From: Gimesia sp. | GTDB lineage: Bacteria > Planctomycetota > Planctomycetia > Planctomycetales > Planctomycetaceae | Reading direction: 5' to 3' | DNA: 64,000 nt | NCBI RefSeq assembly: GCF_040219335.1 | Contig: NZ_JAVJSQ010000005.1 | Span: 501,501 to 565,500, forward strand | Part shown: positions 14,465-60,225 of the stretch, piece by piece | Numbering within the stretch: position 1 is the stretch's first letter | How the letters are laid out: each line of letters begins with the position of its first letter | Made by a program: the position numbers and the translations under genes | The notes under the pieces: model-generated | What the model was told of the DNA's origin: nothing | Seen by the model: only the letters and a program-made list of their open reading frames with translations | Databases searched by the model: none

Positions 14465-15497
14465 ATGCGATTTCTCCTCATCACCGCATTACTATTCGCC
14501 TTTCTCAACCTGTCGGCTGCCGGTGCGGAGCTTGAGCTCGTGTTCCGCCATGTTGTGGCGATCAAAGATCCTGAAGCGAAGTGGCCGGCGCGGATCGACT
14601 ATGCGTCATGGGTTGATGACGAGCGTATCGTCTGCTGGTCCCAGGACGACGTGCTATGTGTATCCACAAAGACGGGGAAGGTCGCATGGGCTGTGCGCGA
14701 TGTTGGCAGGCTGACCGACTGGAGCGTTTCGCGCGATACGAAACGGCTGGCCATTCTCGGGGATGACTTCACGACTTCGGTCATTGACTGCACCAGTGGC
14801 AAGATTATCTTCAAGGCAGATCCTGGGCTTAAGATTCACAGTTCTGACCCGCCTCGCCTTTGTTCCCAATGACGGACGGCTGCTGGTTGGCACTTATTCT
14901 GAATTCTACAGTCGCAATGCTTATCTTCTCGATTCTGAATACAACAAACCTCTCAAATCGTTCGAGATGGACGTTTCGCCCACTGAGATAACGGCATCAC
15001 CCGAGGGGAACCGTGTGGCGGTGATTGCCGATGAAGAGGTGTTGTGTGTGCGGGACCTGGGTTCGAATCGCGACGTTTTCTTTCGCGGCAAACGCATCAG
15101 GGAGAAACCAGATAAGACGGTCTCTGTGATCGACGCTCCTTTCTTCAGTCACATTCGCGACAGTGGAGCGGACATGTTGATCTATACCAGAGACAACAGT
15201 TGGGCTACGGGAAAGGTGTTCGTTCATAATCTGAAGACAAAACAGACCAACTCTTTTGATGCACGTAACGGACACATTGAACTGGATGTCTCCTTTCCCA
15301 AACGTCAAATGGTCGTAACCGGCACATCGACCGACCTGACCGTGTTTGATTTTGAGGGCCAGGTGATTGCCCACAAGAAAAAAGCGACCAGGGAACGCAA
15401 CATCGCTGTGGAGTATTCGCCTGCAGGTGATCGAATCCTGGTGGGATGCTGGGACAACAGCCTCTATGTATTCTCGCTCAAAGAAAATGGCGAATAA
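14465..15497 (+). pseudogene. Exported beta-propeller (WD40-like) protein split by a one-base frameshift
   Basis: Two overlapping reading frames (14465-14872 and about 14763-15497) together encode one coherent protein of about 343 residues. The first part has a signal peptide (MRFLLITALLFAFLNLSAAG) and propeller blades (VDDERIVCWSQDDVLCVST, SVSRDTKRLAILGDD). The second continues as RLAFVPNDGRLLVGTYS and further blades ending YSPAGDRILVGCWDNSLYVF. Removing one C from the CCC at 14848-14850 restores SSDRLAFVPND and joins the frames. The fault could be a real mutation, an assembly error, or, less likely, programmed frameshifting. If real, the product is a truncated 135-residue protein. Confidence 0.75.
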
Positions 15498-16740: not shown

Positions 16741-18132
16741 TTATTGAAGAGTCAGCAGTGCCTGTTGCAGTTCGCTGGTTTTCTGAAAGCGGTTTTGAGG
16801 CGTTGGGGAGAGACAGCGTTTGACGATATGGGCTACGGGGGCCTGTTGCTGCTTTACACCGGTCAGCTTGAATGGGGATGCGGGTAGCGTGCCGGTGATC
16901 AGAGTCCAGAGCAGCACACCCAGGCTGAAAATGTCGGTTGTGGGGGCGGGCAGACTCTGGCGATTGAGGATTTCCGGTGCGAGATATCCTGCGGTACCGC
17001 CGATGCTGTTGACTGGTGTGGTGCTGCCTGCAATCAGATAGGCGAAGCCGAAATCCGTTACTCGAATGTTGTCCCGTTGATCACGCAGGATGTTCGCCGG
17101 TTTGAGGTCACAATGAATGATGCCCTGGTCGTGTGCATAACCGATGGCGTCTGAGACGTGAAGAATGATGCTGACCGCTTCTGGGGTGGTAAAAGGTCCG
17201 GTTTGCAGTTGCGACTGCAAATCGACGCCGTCAATATAGTCCATCACCATGAAGTAGCCCCCGTGGGGGAATCGTCCCAGACCCTCGACGCGTACGAGAT
17301 GCGGGTGCTGTAACTTTGTGAGAACCTGTGCCTCATTGACGAACTGCGAGACGGCACGCCTGTCGGACTGGCGTTTTTTATGCAGTGCCTTGATGGCGAC
17401 TTTCTGTTGTGTCCCTTTCACTCTGGCACGAAATACCTTGCCCATGCCACCTGATCCGAGTAACTGTTCGAGCACGTAATCTTCATAGCGCAAGGGAGCA
17501 GCGTATTCCTCTGCGGGGAGCTGAAAGTCAGCCTCGGGCGTGTTGTGATGCAACAAGCGTTGTTCCAGCTTATTGCGGGCATTTGCCAGCAGACGCCGGA
17601 CGGTTCTCTCTGATTTCCCGATGGTGCTAGAGATCTCTGCATTCTCCTGCCCCTGGAGGCTGGCCGTGAGGACGAGTCGTTCCTCCGAAGGCAGGTCCTG
17701 GATGAGCAGGCTTAATTCTTCGATGATCGCGACGACCTCTGACGGCGCAGGTTCGGGAACGGTTGCAGTCGCGAGAATGGTGTCTGGAGGTGCTTCACGA
17801 TCAATGCTTCTCTTTCCCGCCGTGTGCTTTTCAATCTGACCGTAGAGCTTATGCAGCGTGATGCCTGCCAGTAGACGCCAGAGGTCCCCCGTCTTTTGCA
17901 ACTGGTACTCTCCGACCCGGGCATGCACGAAAAAACTGCGATAAGCAGACTGGATAACGTCCTCGGGATCGATTCGACGACGGAGCCTGGCCCCGATACG
18001 GCTCCGCGCCAGGGCGATGAGCCGTGCGACATAACGGTCAAACAGGACCGTCGCTGCTTCGTTCTCGCCTGCCTGGTACATCTCCAGCAGTTGTTGTGAA
18101 TTCAATTTCGGCACTCTGGAATACGCCTTCAC
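16741..18132 (-). CDS. ECF-type sigma factor fused to a Ser/Thr protein kinase
   Basis: 463 residues in one uninterrupted frame. Residues 11-100 match sigma region 2 of ECF factors (LLEMYQAGENEAATVLFDRY, RRRIDPEDVIQSAYRSFF); residues 140-195 match region 4 with its helix-turn-helix (LPSEERLVLTASLQGQ, ISSTIGKSERTVRRLLANAR). Residues 215-463 are a complete Hanks-type kinase: glycine loop GSGGMGKV (226-233), Lys248, Glu267, HCDLKPAN with Asp342, DFG (360-362), APE (385-387). The catalytic loop is HCD instead of HRD, so it is a non-RD kinase. There is no membrane segment. The kinase may control its own sigma domain or partner proteins; that is inference. ECF genes next to kinases are known in planctomycetes. 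Confidence 0.92.
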   Translation of the reverse strand: MKAYSRVPKLNSQQLLEMYQAGENEAATVLFDRYVARLIALARSRIGARLRRRIDPEDVIQSAYRSFFVHARVGEYQLQKTGDLWRLLAGITLHKLYGQIEKHTAGKRSIDREAPPDTILATATVPEPAPSEVVAIIEELSLLIQDLPSEERLVLTASLQGQENAEISSTIGKSERTVRRLLANARNKLEQRLLHHNTPEADFQLPAEEYAAPLRYEDYVLEQLLGSGGMGKVFRARVKGTQQKVAIKALHKKRQSDRRAVSQFVNEAQVLTKLQHPHLVRVEGLGRFPHGGYFMVMDYIDGVDLQSQLQTGPFTTPEAVSIILHVSDAIGYAHDQGIIHCDLKPANILRDQRDNIRVTDFGFAYLIAGSTTPVNSIGGTAGYLAPEILNRQSLPAPTTDIFSLGVLLWTLITGTLPASPFKLTGVKQQQAPVAHIVKRCLSPTPQNRFQKTSELQQALLTLQ

Positions 18133-18285
18133 TCTGTTCAGATACGTTGCAGGGGGACATGGGAAAAATTTTTTATATTCTGGCAGATTCTTTGACCAAT
18201 CTTACCGGTAAATCGGATGCACCCCCAGAGGAGAGATGCCTGACTGTATCTCTAAGTTCGGAATTTTATTTTGAAAGGACCTGAA

Positions 18286-18558
18286 ATGGCGTTCGTTGTG
18301 ACCGCTCCCTGTGTGGGATGCAAAGATACAAGCTGCGTTCTCGCTTGCCCTTGCGACTGCTTTCACGAGGGGGAGCAGATGCTCTACATCGATCCGGAGG
18401 AGTGCATTGACTGCGATGCGTGCCGGGCGGAATGCCCCGTGGAGGCGATTTTTTATGAAGATGATGTCCCGGAGGAGTGGCAGAGTTTTATTCAGCTCAA
18501 TGCCGAGATGGTAACTCAGACTCCTGCGATCACGGAGAAAAAAACGCCTTTAAAGTGA
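18286..18558 (+). CDS. fdxA: 7Fe ferredoxin, [3Fe-4S][4Fe-4S]
   Basis: 90 residues from the ATG at 18286; the GAAAGGA just upstream is the ribosome-binding site, so the longer TTG-started frame is not used. It begins MAFVVTAPCVGCKDTSC and has the cysteine spacing of Azotobacter FdI-type ferredoxins: Cys9, Cys17 and Cys50 for the 3Fe cluster, Cys21 (or Cys25), Cys40, Cys43, Cys46 for the 4Fe cluster, with the ECIDCDACRAECP segment and the C-terminal EDDVPEEWQSFIQLNAEM tail. Cys12 is also kept and an extra Cys23 replaces the usual Val in PVDCF. Cytoplasmic electron carrier; the partner enzyme is not in the window. Confidence 0.95.
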   Translation: MAFVVTAPCVGCKDTSCVLACPCDCFHEGEQMLYIDPEECIDCDACRAECPVEAIFYEDDVPEEWQSFIQLNAEMVTQTPAITEKKTPLK

Positions 18559-19195: not shown

Positions 19196-19372
19196 CGGAT
19201 TGCTTTCTGAATTCGCTTCTTAAAAGCTGCTTCCAGCTCAAACTGGCTGATAAATCCCAGTTGAAAACTGATGGAAACCTTGGAAAGTCTGCCTGCTTCA
19301 TTTAGGATGGGGACTGTATTTCTGTTTATTTTTACACAGGCGTTCTATTATCACAATCGATCGGATTCAGAA

Positions 19373-20524
19373 ATGTTCTCTTCCATCAATCGTCATATTC
19401 TCATACCAGCTTGCGTGATTGCCTGGTTGACCCTGATATCTGCAGGTGGGATTCCGGTTCTGCAGGCATTTCCTCCTGCGGAGAACCTTGATTTTTCTGA
19501 GAAGTACAAGCAGCTGTTACTGCAGGCAAAAGCAGCGCCTTCTCCGGGAACTCTGAAAGAGGTGGCGTTCGAAGCGATCAACGCCAGTCAGGCTGCGATT
19601 CAGGCGGGCGATTATACTGCTGCAGTGAAGATTGCGACGCTCGCATTTAAAATCGGGAGATCGGCGGGGAACAATCATGCCTCCAGCCTGGCAACCAGTT
19701 TAAAACAACGGTCTGCGATCCTGGCGCGCGAATATCGCGATGTAGAAAAGTATCATCAGATTCTGCAACAGGACCCCGACGATGCGCATGCGGCATTCTT
19801 ATATGGCCAGTTTGTCGCCTTAAAGTTGAACAACAGGAAAGAGGGGCTGGCATGGCTTGCCCGGGGAGATGATGCCGGCTATCGCGCTCTGGCGAAACAG
19901 GAACTGGCGAACTCGAACAATGCTGGTGCGCTGCTGGCGGTCGCTGATGGCTGGTATCAGCTGGCAGACCAGGAAAAAGGGAATACCAGGCAGGAACTGG
20001 AACAGCACGCGTATGATTTACTTGGCCGCGTCTGGACTGACTCGCCCGCTACAGACCGCGATCTGCTGAATGACAAGTTAAGCGCGATGCCTCTCAGGTA
20101 CCTGAATCACATGCCGGAAGAAGATGTTGTGCCTGGTCCGAAGCCCTTTGGTAAAAACGGAGAGAGTGGATATCTGGATGGATTGTTTACTGTCAACCTG
20201 GTTGAGTATGCCAATGGTCTCAGTCTGCATCCGCCGGCTAATGGTTTTGCACGCGTTCGATATCAGCTGAATGGTCAATACAAGACCTTCGTGACCGGCG
20301 TCGGTTTGCTTGATCATCCGACTGAGGTTCGCTCGAAAGTCATCTTTTACGTGATCGGAGATGACAGAGTTCTCTGGAAATCGCCACCCATTCAAGGCCG
20401 AGGTGATGTGGTCTTTTGTAAGGTTTCTGTCAGGAACATCAACCGACTGGAAATTCGCACCGAATGTCCGGGCGGTGCCTACGGTGCGAATGCCGTCTGG
20501 CTCGATCCGCACGTGCTGAAATAA
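19373..20524 (+). CDS. Exported NPCBM-like domain protein, tandem copy 1
   Basis: 383 residues. The frame is open from 19271, but the ATG at 19373 aligns with the start of the second copy and gives a signal peptide (ILIPACVIAWLTLISAGGIP). Helical repeats fill about residues 35-230 (SEKYKQLLLQAKAAP, AINASQAAIQAGDYTAAVKI, DVEKYHQILQQDPDDAHAAF), resembling a TPR-like solenoid. The C-terminal 140 residues fit an NPCBM-type carbohydrate-binding beta-sandwich (VRYQLNGQYKTFVTGVGL, IFYVIGDDRVLWKS, LEIRTECPGG, AVWLDPHVLK). Its neighbour 69 bases downstream is a close paralogue, so this is a recent tandem duplication. A cell-surface sugar-binding role is plausible, not shown. Confidence 0.85.
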   Translation: MFSSINRHILIPACVIAWLTLISAGGIPVLQAFPPAENLDFSEKYKQLLLQAKAAPSPGTLKEVAFEAINASQAAIQAGDYTAAVKIATLAFKIGRSAGNNHASSLATSLKQRSAILAREYRDVEKYHQILQQDPDDAHAAFLYGQFVALKLNNRKEGLAWLARGDDAGYRALAKQELANSNNAGALLAVADGWYQLADQEKGNTRQELEQHAYDLLGRVWTDSPATDRDLLNDKLSAMPLRYLNHMPEEDVVPGPKPFGKNGESGYLDGLFTVNLVEYANGLSLHPPANGFARVRYQLNGQYKTFVTGVGLLDHPTEVRSKVIFYVIGDDRVLWKSPPIQGRGDVVFCKVSVRNINRLEIRTECPGGAYGANAVWLDPHVLK

Positions 20525-20593: not shown

Positions 20594-21736
20594 ATGTTCG
20601 CTTTCAAAAGTCAGTTTCTCTTCCCGATGTGTGTCGCTGTGTTTTGTCTCCTGGCTGTTTCAGGCGGGAGTCAAGTTGCACTGGCATTTCCCCCTGCGTC
20701 GAACATTGATTTCTCTGAGAAATACAGGCAGCTGTTACTGCAGGCAAAAGCAGCGCCTTCCAAAATGGCTCTGAAAGATATGGCGTTTGAGGCGATCAAC
20801 GCCAGTCAGTCAGCGATTCAGGCGGGCGATTATACTGCTGCGGTGAAGATTGCGACGCTGGCTGTCAAAATTGGAAAATCAGCGGGCAGTAACCACGCTT
20901 TTACTCTGGCGAACAGTTTGAGACAACGCAGTGTGATGCTGTCACGTGAGTATATTGATGTGGAAAAATATCATCAAAAACTGAAAGAGGATCCGAACGA
21001 CGCGAGTGCGGCTTTTTTATATGGGAAGTTTGTCGCACTCAAGTTGAACAACTGGAAAGAGGGACTGTTCTGGCTGTCCCGGGGAGATGATGCCGCCTAT
21101 CGCACTCTGGCGAAGCAGGAAATTGCGGTTGCCGATAATGTGGAAAAGCTGCCGGCGGTCGCCGATGGCTGGTATCAGTTAGCACAGCAGGAGAAGGGAT
21201 TGACCGTACAGGAACTGGAACGACATGCCTATGACCTGTATAGCAGCGCCTGGACCAGGATGATCGGGGCAGATCAAATCGCAATCGGGAACAAGCTCAG
21301 CGAGATGCCCCTGCGATACCTGACTCACATGCAGGAAAAAGATGTCGTGCACGGCGGATGGCCTTTCGGAAAGAATGGAGACCCGGGAAATGGGGGGATG
21401 ATTACCGTCAATCAGATTGAGTTCCCTAGAGGCCTGGGGATGGTACCACCCAGTCGAGGTTCCGCGAGTGTGTCTTACCAGCTGGATGGACAATACAAGA
21501 CGTTTGTGTCCGGCATCGCCTTTTTCGATGATGACTACCCTTTCGGCGGAAACGTCACATTTACGGTGCTGGGAGATAATCGGGTTCTCTGGAAATCGCC
21601 CCTGAAAGATCAAAAGGACGTATTGTTCTGTAAGGTTTCAGTCAGGAACGTAAAACGACTGGAAATTCGAACTGAAACGAGCGGAATTAATCGGGGCGCA
21701 CACACAGGCTGGCTGGATCCCCATGTGCTGAAATAG
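20594..21736 (+). CDS. Exported NPCBM-like domain protein, tandem copy 2
   Basis: 380 residues, the same layout as the preceding gene: signal peptide (VAVFCLLAVSGGSQVALAF), helical region with near-identical segments (KYRQLLLQAKAAPS, IQAGDYTAAVKIATLAVK, FLYGKFVALKLNNWKEGL) and a C-terminal NPCBM-like domain ending in the same WLDPHVLK. The two copies are most alike in residues about 30-170 and diverge more in the middle of the C-terminal domain (loops around HGGWPFGKNGDPGN), suggesting that the presumed ligand surface has changed. A possible shared transcript with copy 1; no separate promoter is obvious in the 69-base gap. Confidence 0.87.
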   Translation: MFAFKSQFLFPMCVAVFCLLAVSGGSQVALAFPPASNIDFSEKYRQLLLQAKAAPSKMALKDMAFEAINASQSAIQAGDYTAAVKIATLAVKIGKSAGSNHAFTLANSLRQRSVMLSREYIDVEKYHQKLKEDPNDASAAFLYGKFVALKLNNWKEGLFWLSRGDDAAYRTLAKQEIAVADNVEKLPAVADGWYQLAQQEKGLTVQELERHAYDLYSSAWTRMIGADQIAIGNKLSEMPLRYLTHMQEKDVVHGGWPFGKNGDPGNGGMITVNQIEFPRGLGMVPPSRGSASVSYQLDGQYKTFVSGIAFFDDDYPFGGNVTFTVLGDNRVLWKSPLKDQKDVLFCKVSVRNVKRLEIRTETSGINRGAHTGWLDPHVLK

Positions 21737-55488: not shown

Positions 55489-58400
55489 TTACTGTTTATC
55501 GTTTTTCTGCTTTTCATTCAGCCAGCGTTTCCCTTCCATGAACTCCGTGTGAAAGGCGGCATAAGGAAACTCACGATCGATCTGCTTTCCTTTTTCGAGA
55601 GTTACTTTTGTTCCTGGAGCATTTACGTATCCGTCCGGATGATTGCGGAATAATGCTGTTAATCCCTGATCTGAAAGGTCCGAGTCGGGCAGTTTAATTC
55701 CACTGCAGAGTCGTAATACGGGAACATTCGCCAACAGGTCCGCGCTTCTGAGATTCGGTGCTTCTAATCCAGAAAAATCGGGCAGTTGCGACAGTGCCTC
55801 TGCACTTTCTGGTGTGATTTCGAAGTCACGCGGTAAGATGACACGAATGGGACGAAACAGTTCGGTTTCTGAGGGCAGAAGAGACTTGTCATACGTTTGG
55901 GCACTGATCTCGGAATTGTTAATGCTGGTGACAATCTTGCATCCCTGCTCAAGCAGTTTGATGGCAGCCTCTCGCGCCACGGGGATTCCCAGGTAGCGAT
56001 TCATTGAGCCGCTATCAGTATCGATTACCGTCATACCCGGCTGGAAATTTTGCAGTTTGGCAATCAGTTCCGGTTCAAATCTGAGGCCGAAAGAAGCTAT
56101 GTATAGAAACCGCAGGTTCAATTTGGCAAAACCGGGCGCACGCGCCAGTCCTTCCAATTCCTGAGGAACGGGACTGTAAAGATGCAGTTCTCGCAATCGC
56201 GGCATTAATTCCAGAAAACGAAATTCATCATCAACCTGAGCGGCACCGAGTATGAAAGTATCAAGGTGTTCGAGTCCCATGTCGGGGTTCAGGTCTGACG
56301 TTTTCAGCGGAGTGCTGTAGATATTAAATTCAGTCGTGTTTTCATTGAAACGCAACCCTTCCAGTGCCCTGGGTTCCAGGCTACAGTTCATCAGACTGAG
56401 TGAGTGCAGGGTCACCAGGCGGCTTAATCGCGACAGACTGGAGAGTGTGATCTTCTGATTTGACCTGCCGAAATCAATGTCGAGGATTCGAAATGGTTCT
56501 TCAGGAAGCTGATCCAATCGATTTTTATGAGATTCAGTTCCATGGGCTTTCTTGAAACTGACATTACCACCCAGATTGATTACCCATTCGGCCGTCTCGC
56601 GTTCGAACGCCAGTTGCTCATCATCAGCTAAAGGCGTGTTCGGCTCTTCATGCTGGCTGGTTTTGTTCTGCTCCGCTTTTTCCCGTTTGTCGTACAGGAT
56701 CTCCAGCCAGCGCAGCCCTTTTTCATAATTTGAAACGAATGCAGCGTGCGGAGCCTCATTATCGAGTTGCTGAACCAGCGCTTTTGAGACGCGCGTTCCC
56801 TCGACATTGAAGTAGCCGTCTGGGTCCTGCAGAACCAGTTTTTTAAACGCCGGGTCTGTCAGGTCGGATTCGATTAAATGAACTCCACTGCAGAGCCGGA
56901 TCACAGGAAGCTCCGCGAGCAGATCGGCGTTTTTGATCTTATTCGCATGAATTGAGTAAGCTCTGGGGAGAGAAGCCAGATGGTCGATAATTTCGGGGGT
57001 GAGTTCCAGTTCAGGTGGCAAAATAACTCTGGACAGACTGAAGGGCACCCGATCGGAGGGCAGATTCTTTTTCGAATAGTTCTGCTTTCCTTGTCCCGGT
57101 TCTTTCAAGGTACAACCCCGTTCTATCAGGGCATCTGCAGCCTGTTTTGCTACGGGAATTCCGAGATATGCCTCCTTCCTCCCAGAACCTTCTGCGGTAA
57201 TTGTCATCCCGGGTCGGGCTGTTTGCAGTTGTTTAATTACTATGGCATCGAAAGAGCCGATGGAACGCAGTCTGAGAAAACGTAATTTAGATTCACTCAG
57301 CAGGGGAGATTGGCTGAGTTCCTGAAGCGCAGCGGGAGAGATCGCTGTGATTTCCAGCGCTCTCAGGTTTGGCATTTGTTTGAGAAACTCAAAGTGGTCA
57401 TCGATTTGTGAACCGCCTAATTCCAGTGTATCGATGAATTCCAGGCCTTGAGTCGATTTCAGGTTTGAGACCTTCAGGGGAGTACGCACGATTCGCAAGG
57501 TTTCAAAAGACTGTTTAAAACGGACGTTCTCAAGTGCATTGGGAGTCACTCCCGAATTTTCCAGGATCAGTTCTTCCAGGGTCATTAACTGACTGAGTCG
57601 ACTTAAATCTGTCAGCGGTCCAGTGCGGGGATTTTGAAAAGCGACGGATTTCAGCCGGAATGGTTCATCTGGGAGTTCCTTGATGACCTTGACGTTAAAT
57701 TTGAAGTCATGTGCCATATTAAAGCGGACGATGCCCCCCCGTTCGATCAGCCACTCCGTGACTTCCCGTTCCGGGGCAAAGGGTTCGACAGGATCAGCGT
57801 CCTGTGGTGCAGTTGACCCAATCTGGTCGGCAGCAGGACTGGTGACCTTTGCTGATTTATCCGGTGTCTGGGACGGCAGCCAGTTCAAGTTGATTTCCGC
57901 TGATTGGATATCTGCGGGACTGATTTTAAAGCGACCGTTTTTGATGTGAAGTCCATTGACCGACGCCAGCACTCTCTGTTCGCTGTCATCGACTTTGATG
58001 GTTGTCAGTTCTCCCCAGGGAAGCCGCTGCTCTCCAATGCGGAGACTGAGTTCATGTGAACCCGGTTCCTGGGCCCCGTTCCAGCTTCCTGACTTCAGTT
58101 CCAGTGGTTGCCCGTCAAGCAGCACCTGGGCTCGTTCATCATTCAGGGTGACATGCAGATTACCCTTTGATGCCGTGGGCTTCAGAAAGGTGATTCCCAA
58201 TAGCAGTACGGCGAGCAGTGCCATGCCTGCGAGTATCTTTCCGGGACTCAAACCTTTTCGAGACGAAATGGCCTGATCGGTCTCAAGCCAGTTTGTGAGG
58301 ACTTGAGCAACTTCCTGCATTGTGGCGTAGCGTTGCTCAGCGGAGCGGGCCATCATTTTGCGACAGATCTGATCCAGCCGGGAGTTGATGTCGGGCTGAA

Positions 58401-59484
58401 TGTTGCGGACCGGCCGCGGATCTTTAGTCATGATCTGCGACAGGATCGATGCCGTCGTTCCCTGGAACGGACGTTGTCCGGCGAGCAGTTCGTACATGAT
58501 CACACCCAGCGCGTAGATATCGCTGGGAGGGCCAATCTTTTCCAGATCGCCCTCCACCTGTTCGGGTGACATGTAAGACGGGCTCCCCATGATCTGGCCA
58601 TGCTGCGTGATCTGAGTTGCCTCTTCGTTCTGGCTCATCAATGCCAGTCCGAAATCGGTAATGATGGGCGTGCCATCCTCGCGGATCATGACGTTGGCGG
58701 GCTTGAGGTCCCGATGCACGATTCCCTGCTGATGCGCGAGGCCCAGCGCCTGGGACAGCTGTTGAATCAGCTCGACGACTTCGACCTGATTGAATTTCTT
58801 CCCCTCCTGGAGCAGCGCTGCCAGAGATTCTCCTTCGATGAATTCCATCGTGATATAATGCACGCCATCAATTTCGTCGACGTCGTAGACCGAACAGAGA
58901 TTGGGATGATTCAGATTGGCAGCCGCCCGTGCTTCGCGGTAAAAGCGGGCAATAAACTGGGTATCGGCGTGTTTGTCGATCTGGGGTAGTTTCAGTGCGA
59001 CTTTGCGTTCAAGCTGTGTGTCACGGGCCAGGTAGACGCAGCCCATGCCTCCCTCACCCAGGCGGGAGAGGATCTGGTAGCGTCCGAAGGTTGCGGGGAA
59101 CTGTTCGAAGTGCAGGCGTGATTCTTCCACCGTGCGCAGTCCGGAACTGTCTGCCTGGCCGGAATCGGATTCACCGGCGATCCGGGTTTTCGTTGCGTGC
59201 GTTCTGGCAAACAGCCGGGACAACTCGTCCGCGATTTCAGGATGATCCTGAATCAGCTCCTGCTCACTGATGATTTTACCGGAATCCCGCAGGCGATAAT
59301 AACGTTCGATCAGAATCAGTTCCTGCAGCAGGATTTCCCGCGTGGGCTGTGCGAAGTCGGCGATCGTGTCTTCCAGAGATGGAGTCTGTCCGCTCTGCCA
59401 GGAAAGTTCATATTCCTCGCAGGATTCTTCGATGCGGATCTGGATCTCCGCGGTCAGGTTTTCCAGCTCTGATGGTTGATTCAT
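55489..59484 (-). CDS. Membrane Ser/Thr kinase with duplicated leucine-rich-like sensor region
   Basis: 1331 residues from the ATG at 59484 (AAGGA upstream). Cytoplasmic Hanks-type kinase at about 134-400: glycine loop GEGGMGCV, Lys165 (VALK), HRDLKPANV with Asp259, DFG (277-279), SPEQ. One transmembrane helix at about 415-435 (GMALLAVLLLGITFL). The outer part holds a PEGA-like segment and then two long tandem repeats, about 572-940 and 960-1331, each with leucine-rich-like strands (LSRLSQLMTLEELILENSGV / LSRLSRLVTLHSLSLMNCSL) and similar ends (APHAAFVSNYEKGLRWLE / FPYAAFHTEFMEGKRWLN). Likely a sensor kinase. Its ECF sigma factor partner is 117 bases upstream. Confidence 0.95.
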   Translation of the reverse strand: MNQPSELENLTAEIQIRIEESCEEYELSWQSGQTPSLEDTIADFAQPTREILLQELILIERYYRLRDSGKIISEQELIQDHPEIADELSRLFARTHATKTRIAGESDSGQADSSGLRTVEESRLHFEQFPATFGRYQILSRLGEGGMGCVYLARDTQLERKVALKLPQIDKHADTQFIARFYREARAAANLNHPNLCSVYDVDEIDGVHYITMEFIEGESLAALLQEGKKFNQVEVVELIQQLSQALGLAHQQGIVHRDLKPANVMIREDGTPIITDFGLALMSQNEEATQITQHGQIMGSPSYMSPEQVEGDLEKIGPPSDIYALGVIMYELLAGQRPFQGTTASILSQIMTKDPRPVRNIQPDINSRLDQICRKMMARSAEQRYATMQEVAQVLTNWLETDQAISSRKGLSPGKILAGMALLAVLLLGITFLKPTASKGNLHVTLNDERAQVLLDGQPLELKSGSWNGAQEPGSHELSLRIGEQRLPWGELTTIKVDDSEQRVLASVNGLHIKNGRFKISPADIQSAEINLNWLPSQTPDKSAKVTSPAADQIGSTAPQDADPVEPFAPEREVTEWLIERGGIVRFNMAHDFKFNVKVIKELPDEPFRLKSVAFQNPRTGPLTDLSRLSQLMTLEELILENSGVTPNALENVRFKQSFETLRIVRTPLKVSNLKSTQGLEFIDTLELGGSQIDDHFEFLKQMPNLRALEITAISPAALQELSQSPLLSESKLRFLRLRSIGSFDAIVIKQLQTARPGMTITAEGSGRKEAYLGIPVAKQAADALIERGCTLKEPGQGKQNYSKKNLPSDRVPFSLSRVILPPELELTPEIIDHLASLPRAYSIHANKIKNADLLAELPVIRLCSGVHLIESDLTDPAFKKLVLQDPDGYFNVEGTRVSKALVQQLDNEAPHAAFVSNYEKGLRWLEILYDKREKAEQNKTSQHEEPNTPLADDEQLAFERETAEWVINLGGNVSFKKAHGTESHKNRLDQLPEEPFRILDIDFGRSNQKITLSSLSRLSRLVTLHSLSLMNCSLEPRALEGLRFNENTTEFNIYSTPLKTSDLNPDMGLEHLDTFILGAAQVDDEFRFLELMPRLRELHLYSPVPQELEGLARAPGFAKLNLRFLYIASFGLRFEPELIAKLQNFQPGMTVIDTDSGSMNRYLGIPVAREAAIKLLEQGCKIVTSINNSEISAQTYDKSLLPSETELFRPIRVILPRDFEITPESAEALSQLPDFSGLEAPNLRSADLLANVPVLRLCSGIKLPDSDLSDQGLTALFRNHPDGYVNAPGTKVTLEKGKQIDREFPYAAFHTEFMEGKRWLNEKQKNDKQ

Positions 59485-59601
59485 TTGTCCAATCCTTAAC
59501 TCGTGCACTGCGAGTTATCAGCTGGATCGCCTTTGGTTGCCTGTTCCCGACATGTTCTTCCCACAAAAATGAGAAACGAAACAAAAAAGTCTGGACTGGA
59601 T

Positions 59602-60225
59602 TTAGACCAGCTCTGATTCCACTTCTTCAGTCCAGATCTGACGTATCAGGACCAGACGCCGTTCCACGCTCCGCTCCATGACACCCACTTTGGCTGCAAT
59701 CTCTGCATTGGTATAACCTTCCAGCTTCAGCCGGGCGACATCCCGCAGTGAATCTTTACCGAGTACCGCCAGCATCCGATTGGCTTCCTCGGCGGCTTCA
59801 ACTGCAAGTTCCGGACTGGGGCTTTCCTGAGCCAGTTGATCCAGCCAGTTGTCGGACTCCTCGTTTGATGTACCGGAAACGGTGCGTCTGACGTCCCGTT
59901 TCTGTGCGCTCTGACGTCGGTACAGGTTTCGCGTTTTACAGAGAGTGATATTTACTAGTAGCGGCCAGAGGCTGGTGCGGTCATTCAGATTTGGGAACTG
60001 ACCCGCTTTGAGTCGCACGAAAAAGCTGTTGAATGCGCTGAGGACGGCGTCTTCCTCGTCTTCCACCCGACAGAGATCCTTCTGCAGGTGGGAACGCGCC
60101 AGTTGGACCAGCTGCTCAAAATAGCGGTTCCAGAGCTGCTGCTGCAGGCTGTCTGCTTCTCCCCGTTTGAGTTGATCCAGCCAGTTAGTGACTGATCCCT
60201 GATTCTCCATGCCCGCTGCCATCAT
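59602..60225 (-). CDS. ECF-type sigma factor
   Basis: 207 residues (start 60225, 60222 or 60210). Region 2: WNRYFEQLVQLARSHLQKDL, EEDAVLSAFNSFFVRLKAGQ. Region 4: SLRDVARLKLEGYTNAEIAA, VGVMERSVERRLVLIRQIWT. This matches the planctomycetal group of ECF factors encoded next to Ser/Thr kinases; the giant kinase follows 117 bases downstream on the same strand. The kinase probably activates the sigma factor or its partner. No anti-sigma gene is seen. Confidence 0.93.
   Translation of the reverse strand: MMAAGMENQGSVTNWLDQLKRGEADSLQQQLWNRYFEQLVQLARSHLQKDLCRVEDEEDAVLSAFNSFFVRLKAGQFPNLNDRTSLWPLLVNITLCKTRNLYRRQSAQKRDVRRTVSGTSNEESDNWLDQLAQESPSPELAVEAAEEANRMLAVLGKDSLRDVARLKLEGYTNAEIAAKVGVMERSVERRLVLIRQIWTEEVESELV

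Follow-up and report, generated by a model that had tools for sequence, protein, structure and literature searches.

The window, i.e., the whole stretch of 64,000 nucleotides analysed, comes from a Gimesia genome of 7.9 Mb and contains on its minus strand an open reading frame (18132..16741) that starts with GTG, encodes 463 amino acids and has no internal stop. The preliminary description, which gave no strand for this frame, had read it as an ECF sigma factor and a Ser/Thr kinase joined in a single-frame polypeptide of 463 residues, and this reading is confirmed by the unbroken frame, by the order of the Pfam domains and by the same order in relatives. On the plus strand, sequence matches assign the 90-residue product of 18286..18558 to the FdxA-type (7Fe) ferredoxins; its gene is transcribed divergently from the fusion gene. 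A conserved two-block element, TGACCAA-N13-TCGGAT (18193..18218, plus strand), is located 93 nt before the ferredoxin ATG as a putative promoter. A minus-strand frame of 115 amino acids (18549..18202, stop to stop), seemingly a conserved neighbour, was rejected because it is the ferredoxin gene read in antisense, and RNA family models gave near the fusion gene one chance match far under its cut-off. Elsewhere on the plus strand, the overlapping frames 14465-14872 and 14763-15497 (14465-15497 overall) resemble one repeat-type protein broken by a frame change. The genes at 19271-20524 and 20594-21736 (plus strand) are tandem paralogues, both of which end in an NPCBM/NEW2 domain, and the genomes G006 and G008 have one homologue each near the fusion gene.

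The sigma domain covers residues 14-193 (17554..18093, minus strand), where Pfam Sigma70_ECF matches at E 1e-15, and Sigma70_r4_2 matches residues 138-189 at E 2e-8. Sigma70_r2 gave no separate match in the fusion protein at E 0.1. The general ECF model of NCBIfam, TIGR02937, scored above its cut-off. With sigma70 regions 2 and 4 and no region 3, this half is an ECF sigma factor, a class whose primary classification is reportedly that of Casas-Pastor 2021. The acidic DPED motif of region 2.2 is present at residues 55-58 (17959..17970, minus strand); D55 is kept in 57 of 58 module members, by which we mean the fused genes and the non-fused members of their lineages, and D58 in all 58. An AlphaFold model computed from a nine-row alignment has a mean pLDDT of 75 and a pTM of 0.54. 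Its kinase part is mostly well modelled and residues 194-210 of the linker (residues 194-218, 17479..17553, minus strand), which is under weaker constraint, have low confidence. Due to the disordered linker and this pTM, the interface between sigma and kinase is not readable from the model. The 50 Foldseek matches listed for it are kinases only, with none to the sigma part.

The Hanks-type kinase domain extends from residue 219 to the C-terminus at residue 463 (16744..17478, minus strand), with no sensor domain behind it. Pfam Pkinase matches residues 219-424 at E 7e-51, PknB is the best PDB sequence match by phmmer, and the top Foldseek match shows 31% identity. The Gly-rich loop, Lys, Glu, HxD, Asn, DFG and APE characteristic of Hanks-type kinases are all found in the sequence. 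The wording "full" kinase was still slightly generous, since the C-lobe is shortened near helix G: the match covers positions 1-203 of the 263 in the Pkinase profile, and about 20 residues are missing there in comparison with the majority of the remoter fused homologues. The helix G region is a common docking site. When the 52 distinct fused kinases were compared, K248, D342, N347 and D360 were present in 52/52 and E267 in 51/52; together with the DFG glycine, these residues are retained in 51-52 of 52, and by this measure the kinase is catalytically intact.

The catalytic loop reads HCDLKPAN (residues 340-347, 17092..17115, minus strand), with Cys341 in the place of the Arg that precedes the catalytic Asp in RD kinases. 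The non-RD state had been noted from this single gene, and it proved to be a fixed trait of all 52 fused kinases, in which residue 341 is Cys in 33, Gly in 14, Ala in four, Ser in one and Arg in none. The six non-fused module members carry Cys (four) or Gly (two). Other kinases encoded nearby have Arg in 14 of 15 cases on the same strand, the remaining one being Gln, and in six of seven on the opposite strand, with one unreadable. From the own genome, the best 30 of 45 Pkinase matches were read; apart from the fusion, Arg is found in 26 of 29, Lys and Cys in one each, and one did not match the pattern. The Gln belongs to L094, where a kinase with HQD instead of HRD lies beside a related sigma gene without the ferredoxin, which makes it a second kind of non-RD kinase outside the module. 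The previously suggested unusual activation gains support from this fixed trait. No activation-loop column before the P+1 Thr has Ser or Thr at 60% or more among the 52 fused kinases, as would be expected if the kinase does not depend on phosphorylation of the loop. The protein ends at most 19 residues past the kinase match in 51 of the 52, so a sensor domain is lacking. The peak 19-residue Kyte-Doolittle mean from the sigma domain to the C-terminus is 1.77 over the 52 fused proteins, in which no transmembrane segment is evident, and the earlier statement to this effect holds for the family.

Seven further genomes of the genus contain continuous ORFs of the same order, with sigma parts of 94-95% or 67-71% identity, and the fusion is accordingly present in 8 of 17 genus genomes, the window's own included. 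In the eight pairs computed, the sigma part has dN/dS values of 0.10-0.32 and the kinase part values of 0.09-0.23, dS being near saturation in the two most distant pairs, and purifying selection acts on both halves in the genus. Over the first ~10 codons dN/dS rises up to 1.7 and constraint is not clear there. Considering also that the GTG at 18132 is present in three of nine aligned homologues, translation probably starts at the GTG of codon 7 (18114) or the TTG of codon 10 (18105). The gene has no ATG start between 18105 and 18132 on the minus strand, and its conserved candidates are GTG or TTG.

To place the gene in its phylum, we searched planctomycete genomes for the order of sigma and kinase, as the preliminary description had proposed, and obtained 52 distinct fused proteins, 51 of them from the window's class. 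Forty-seven belong to the window's family and, by hand tally, to 47 different genomes; four belong to three other families (two, one and one), and the last is L031, a named record placed to phylum only. The family search covered 170 genomes and included all rows with an open frame of at least 450 aa and part of the shorter ones, so that these counts are lower bounds. From the class search (397 genomes) only 12 new loci were counted, and long frames in, e.g., G618, G584, G605, G596 and G701 were left out, as were G051 and G053 from another search. Across the phylum, 392 evenly sampled genomes yielded 28 with a sigma match at E 1e-22, of which 12 contained a fused gene. Outside the phylum, a pattern-limited scan gave three non-planctomycete matches, all to the kinase part only. 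The fusion is a recurrent family and not an oddity.

Fused and split forms are intermingled in the sigma phylogeny. In a tree of 111 sigma domains from a quick search, the fused label changes 11 times against a mean of 37 after shuffling, and at least three of the 11 changes are forced by strongly supported branches. Close fused and split relatives are L079/L091, L024/L022 and L027+L038/L036, and six members of the fused lineages are non-fused. In L081, L017, L091, L022 and L036, a complete sigma frame is followed by a kinase frame that overlaps it or lies one stop away. In L154, the in-frame stop falls within sigma region 4, and for this reason it is more plausibly an interrupted fusion or an assembly error than a natural split. 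In-frame stops among module members were thus seen in L036, between sigma and kinase, and in the sigma part of L154 and L082. The interchange of fused and split forms suggests joint action of sigma and kinase, and such alternation would be expected of obligate partners.

The arrangement of ECF genes beside kinases, which the preliminary description named as known from planctomycetes, is also found in the own genome (G000), where 9 of 17 Sigma70_ECF matches are followed on the same strand by a kinase domain within ~1.4 kb. Of the others, one lies beside a divergent kinase and one belongs to the fusion. The window itself contains an unfused pair at 58312-60195 (minus strand), consisting of an ECF sigma gene (59623-60195) and then a kinase domain (58312-59079) of the HRD type in a 1341-aa frame.

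The best PDB matches of the ferredoxin have E values of about 1e-31 to 1e-29, and several of the chains are named 7Fe ferredoxin I; FdxA, or Azotobacter ferredoxin I, is its nearest likeness. Cysteines C9, C17, C21, C40, C43, C46 and C50 are kept in 57 of 57 copies, and we take these seven to be the cluster ligands by assignment after Azotobacter FdI. With both the cysteines and the similarity to ferredoxin I, the neighbour qualifies as a 7Fe ferredoxin of the FdxA type. It is the sole neighbour common to all eight genus loci and L031, the contigs of G006 and G007 being short. Over 42 loci, the recurring frames listed on top were the fusion, the ferredoxin or frames overlapping it, two other kinase genes and a few further frames. 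The divergent ferredoxin lies beside 49 of the 52 fused genes, L150 having been added by tblastn to the initial 48, and beside all six non-fused members of the same lineages. None of the 43 other sigma relatives, each with at least 700 nt of upstream sequence in view, has it, and neither do the nine other sigma genes of the own genome that were tabulated. Three fused genes (L079, L093 and L151) have none nearby in the 1.5-3.7 kb of upstream sequence in view. The ferredoxin was also found at L080, where a contig end cuts the gene and no kinase was seen, and at L082, where a stop interrupts the sigma part and which stands outside the tree. In the 12 fresh loci, the ferredoxin accompanied six of six module members (four fused and two split, all HCD) but none of the six others, three of which had a readable HRD kinase and one of which (L217) offered only ~500 nt upstream. 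Within the genus, an FdxA match exists in 16 of 17 genomes, the exception being 74% complete, and two copies occur in exactly the eight genomes with the fusion. The module ferredoxin is a second, accessory FdxA beside the core copy in the genus.

We analysed the sequences upstream of the ferredoxin genes, where the general form of the element is TGtCCG-N17-GCATt and that of Gimesia is TGACCAA..CGGAT. An exact 5-mer/4-mer pair occurs in 19 of 57 upstream sequences versus at most four in 10 shuffles. Expectation maximization on 53 sequences, after four near-identical ones were dropped, found TGTCCG and GCATT with a spacer of 16-17 bases at a log-likelihood of 256, compared with 48-71 in 12 dinucleotide shuffles; the site counts are uninformative, as the shuffles saturate likewise. 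Models trained on random halves of the 49 non-Gimesia sequences recovered the element above the 99% threshold of simple shuffles in 14-21 of 25 held-out sequences; on the reversed strand, the count was 0 of 25. This test is not fully independent because the held-out rows are relatives. Upstream of the module ferredoxins of the genus, the Gimesia form is present with 0-1 mismatches in 8 of 8, as it also is at L031, and upstream of the core FdxA it shows 8-9 mismatches in 16 of 16, the pattern having been drawn from module copies. Scored with the model from other lineages, the Gimesia module copies reach 7.3-8.9 bits, and no core copy exceeds 4.8. Since the Gimesia sites fall under the thresholds of 11-13 bits of that model, the two forms are joined by position and shape and not by one strict motif, and the count of 0 of 16 core FdxA over threshold was set aside because the same threshold would also miss the Gimesia module copies.

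In 33 loci with strong sites, the median distance from the element to the ferredoxin ATG is 76 nt, with quartiles of 73 and 87, and the distance to the sigma domain is looser, with quartiles of 76 and 124. In direction, spacing and position, the element agrees with an ECF promoter that drives the ferredoxin gene. Where the -35 block has the variant CCAA, residue 181 of the recognition helix is Leu or Trp in 7 of 7 cases (score at least 6.5), and with the other -35 forms this residue is mostly small or polar and is Leu once. Such covariation appears compatible with direct reading by the sigma domain of the fusion, the AA forms being one clade and thus confounded by descent. The element is quite probably a promoter read by the sigma domain of the fusion, and it could instead be an operator. 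The Gimesia form has a single occurrence in the own genome, before the module ferredoxin. Two more sites need three mismatches, a level at which the backwards control gave one; being at chance level, they were not accepted as a wider regulon.

Control of an ECF sigma factor by a cognate Hanks-type kinase in place of an anti-sigma factor is known from the ECF43 pairs EcfP/PknT of Vibrio parahaemolyticus and EcfK/PknS of Xanthomonas citri, according to the portions of PMC8999054 and PMC13147305 covered here. There, the kinases are separate proteins and PknS is transmembrane, whereas the Gimesia protein is one soluble polypeptide with a non-RD kinase and an adjoining ferredoxin gene. EcfP lacks the acidic residues of region 2.2, and a phosphothreonine stands in for them (PMC8999054, portions covered); in EcfK, a second site is described in the loop between sigma2 and sigma4 (PMC13147305, portions covered). 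The Gimesia fusion, in contrast, keeps DPED and does not show the ECF43 hallmark of missing acids with Ser or Thr instead. Because phosphorylation is not needed to supply this charge, the EcfP mechanism is not transferable as such, and the near-invariance of D55 and D58 in the module led us to reject it in that form. We also compared the 58 module members with 44 relatives, and no conserved Ser or Thr that is specific to the module and suited as a switch emerged in the sigma part. Ser62 is also Ser in 42 of the 44 relatives, and position 66, with Ser in all 58 module members, has Ser or Thr in 40 of 44. The interdomain regions contain Ser and Thr residues, none of them conspicuous, and a conserved phosphosite was dropped as a candidate since the sequence columns show nothing peculiar to the module.

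Taken all together, we consider it fairly probable that the locus is a two-gene module in which a soluble sigma-kinase switch is paired with a divergently transcribed, accessory FdxA-type ferredoxin, with the ferredoxin gene as the main target. The kinase, which is joined permanently to the C-terminal end of sigma region 4 or, in the split forms, encoded just behind it, would control how active its own sigma domain is, most likely through phosphorylation of the sigma domain or the linker in cis. For such control in cis, the chances seem evenly balanced, and it is proposed without naming a site as no Ser or Thr stands out. As the kinase is non-RD, it would be controlled not through phosphorylation of its activation loop but through occupancy of or contacts with its domain, by a ligand, by the ATP or redox state, or by the ferredoxin itself. 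The active sigma domain would then bring RNA polymerase to TG(T/A)CC-N16/17-(G)CAT, the putative promoter in front of the ferredoxin gene. The ferredoxin would be one more electron carrier for the cell and may in turn act on the switch. A redox or Fe-S input, suggested solely by the company of the ferredoxin, is a tentative part of this proposal.

The kinase domain might alternatively act as a tethered anti-sigma factor that masks sigma2 and sigma4 until a ligand or the ferredoxin releases them, with catalysis being secondary. Regulation by C-terminal extensions is described for other ECF sigma factors in the portions of PMC8999054 covered, where ECF41 with SnoaL and CorE likewise carry a regulatory extension behind sigma that is not a kinase, and no conserved anti-sigma gene was found among the neighbours identified (the Gimesia loci, two of them on short contigs, and the top frames over 42 loci). 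A pure scaffold would, however, be expected to lose some of the catalytic residues that 51-52 of 52 proteins keep, and we give this explanation a minor chance. Somewhat less probable still is that the ferredoxin is the input and not the target, the kinase reading its cluster state and the sigma domain having its targets elsewhere. The tight linkage to the fused genes (49/52) and the seven expected ligand cysteines in 57/57 would suit such a sensor, but in the genus the promoter-spaced element lies ahead of the module ferredoxin and is missing ahead of the core FdxA, and in the own genome the Gimesia form was found before the module ferredoxin only. The two roles of the ferredoxin are compatible and not exclusive. 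Improbable in our view is a kinase that acts in trans on other targets, with fusion merely ensuring equal amounts: its catalytic residues are intact by sequence and such kinases are numerous in planctomycetes (the own genome alone has 45 Pkinase matches), yet the split forms retain the same non-RD kinase beside the same sigma, and the helix G region is short in the Gimesia forms and L031. A frame or assembly artefact joining two adjacent genes, the concern raised in the preliminary description with a stop or frameshift at residues 195-215 in mind and suggested also by the single in-frame stops of the relatives L036 and L154, is rejected as next to impossible, given the unbroken frame here, the 52 distinct unbroken fused sequences, several on single-contig genomes (e.g., G001, G008 and G014), and the dN/dS of both halves.

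The planctomycete groups ECF59, 61, 62 and 217 are listed as phosphorylation-controlled because of adjoining kinases, and the STPK-linked groups other than ECF43 have a DAED-like motif (PMC8999054, portions covered). These groups are known by their neighbourhood and, in those portions, neither a fusion nor a ferredoxin link is mentioned. The fusion and its ferredoxin link are likewise unnamed in the portions covered of PMC8999054, PMC8103513, PMC11032199, PMC8567305, PMC9239204, PMC8195603 and PMC13147305, which deal with STPK-linked ECF groups and unusual planctomycete architectures. Titles and abstract openings from a literature search do not name them either, and an earlier mention may exist in ECF reclassification or planctomycete papers. 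The preliminary description had caught the fusion and had overlooked its recurrence, its alternation with split forms and the divergent FdxA-type ferredoxin with the promoter-like element.

In the literature covered, as far as its available portions go, we found no test of the control of neighbouring ECF sigma factors by planctomycete kinases, because the signals of the kinases and the targets of the sigma factors are mostly unknown. Here, kinase and sigma factor are contained in one soluble protein of 463 residues, and one nearby gene with a promoter-like element is the predicted target, so that one protein, one promoter and RNA polymerase should be enough to reconstitute the whole path in vitro. 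The non-RD kinase and the divergent FdxA also provide a marker by which the family is recognizable from sequence alone. It is conceivable, if rather unlikely, that the non-RD kinase is gated by the accessory 7Fe ferredoxin or by the state of its cluster, that the kinase gates sigma in cis and that sigma drives the ferredoxin gene; if true, this would be a novel type of self-contained redox switch, a feedback loop of two genes that works without a membrane sensor or an anti-sigma factor.
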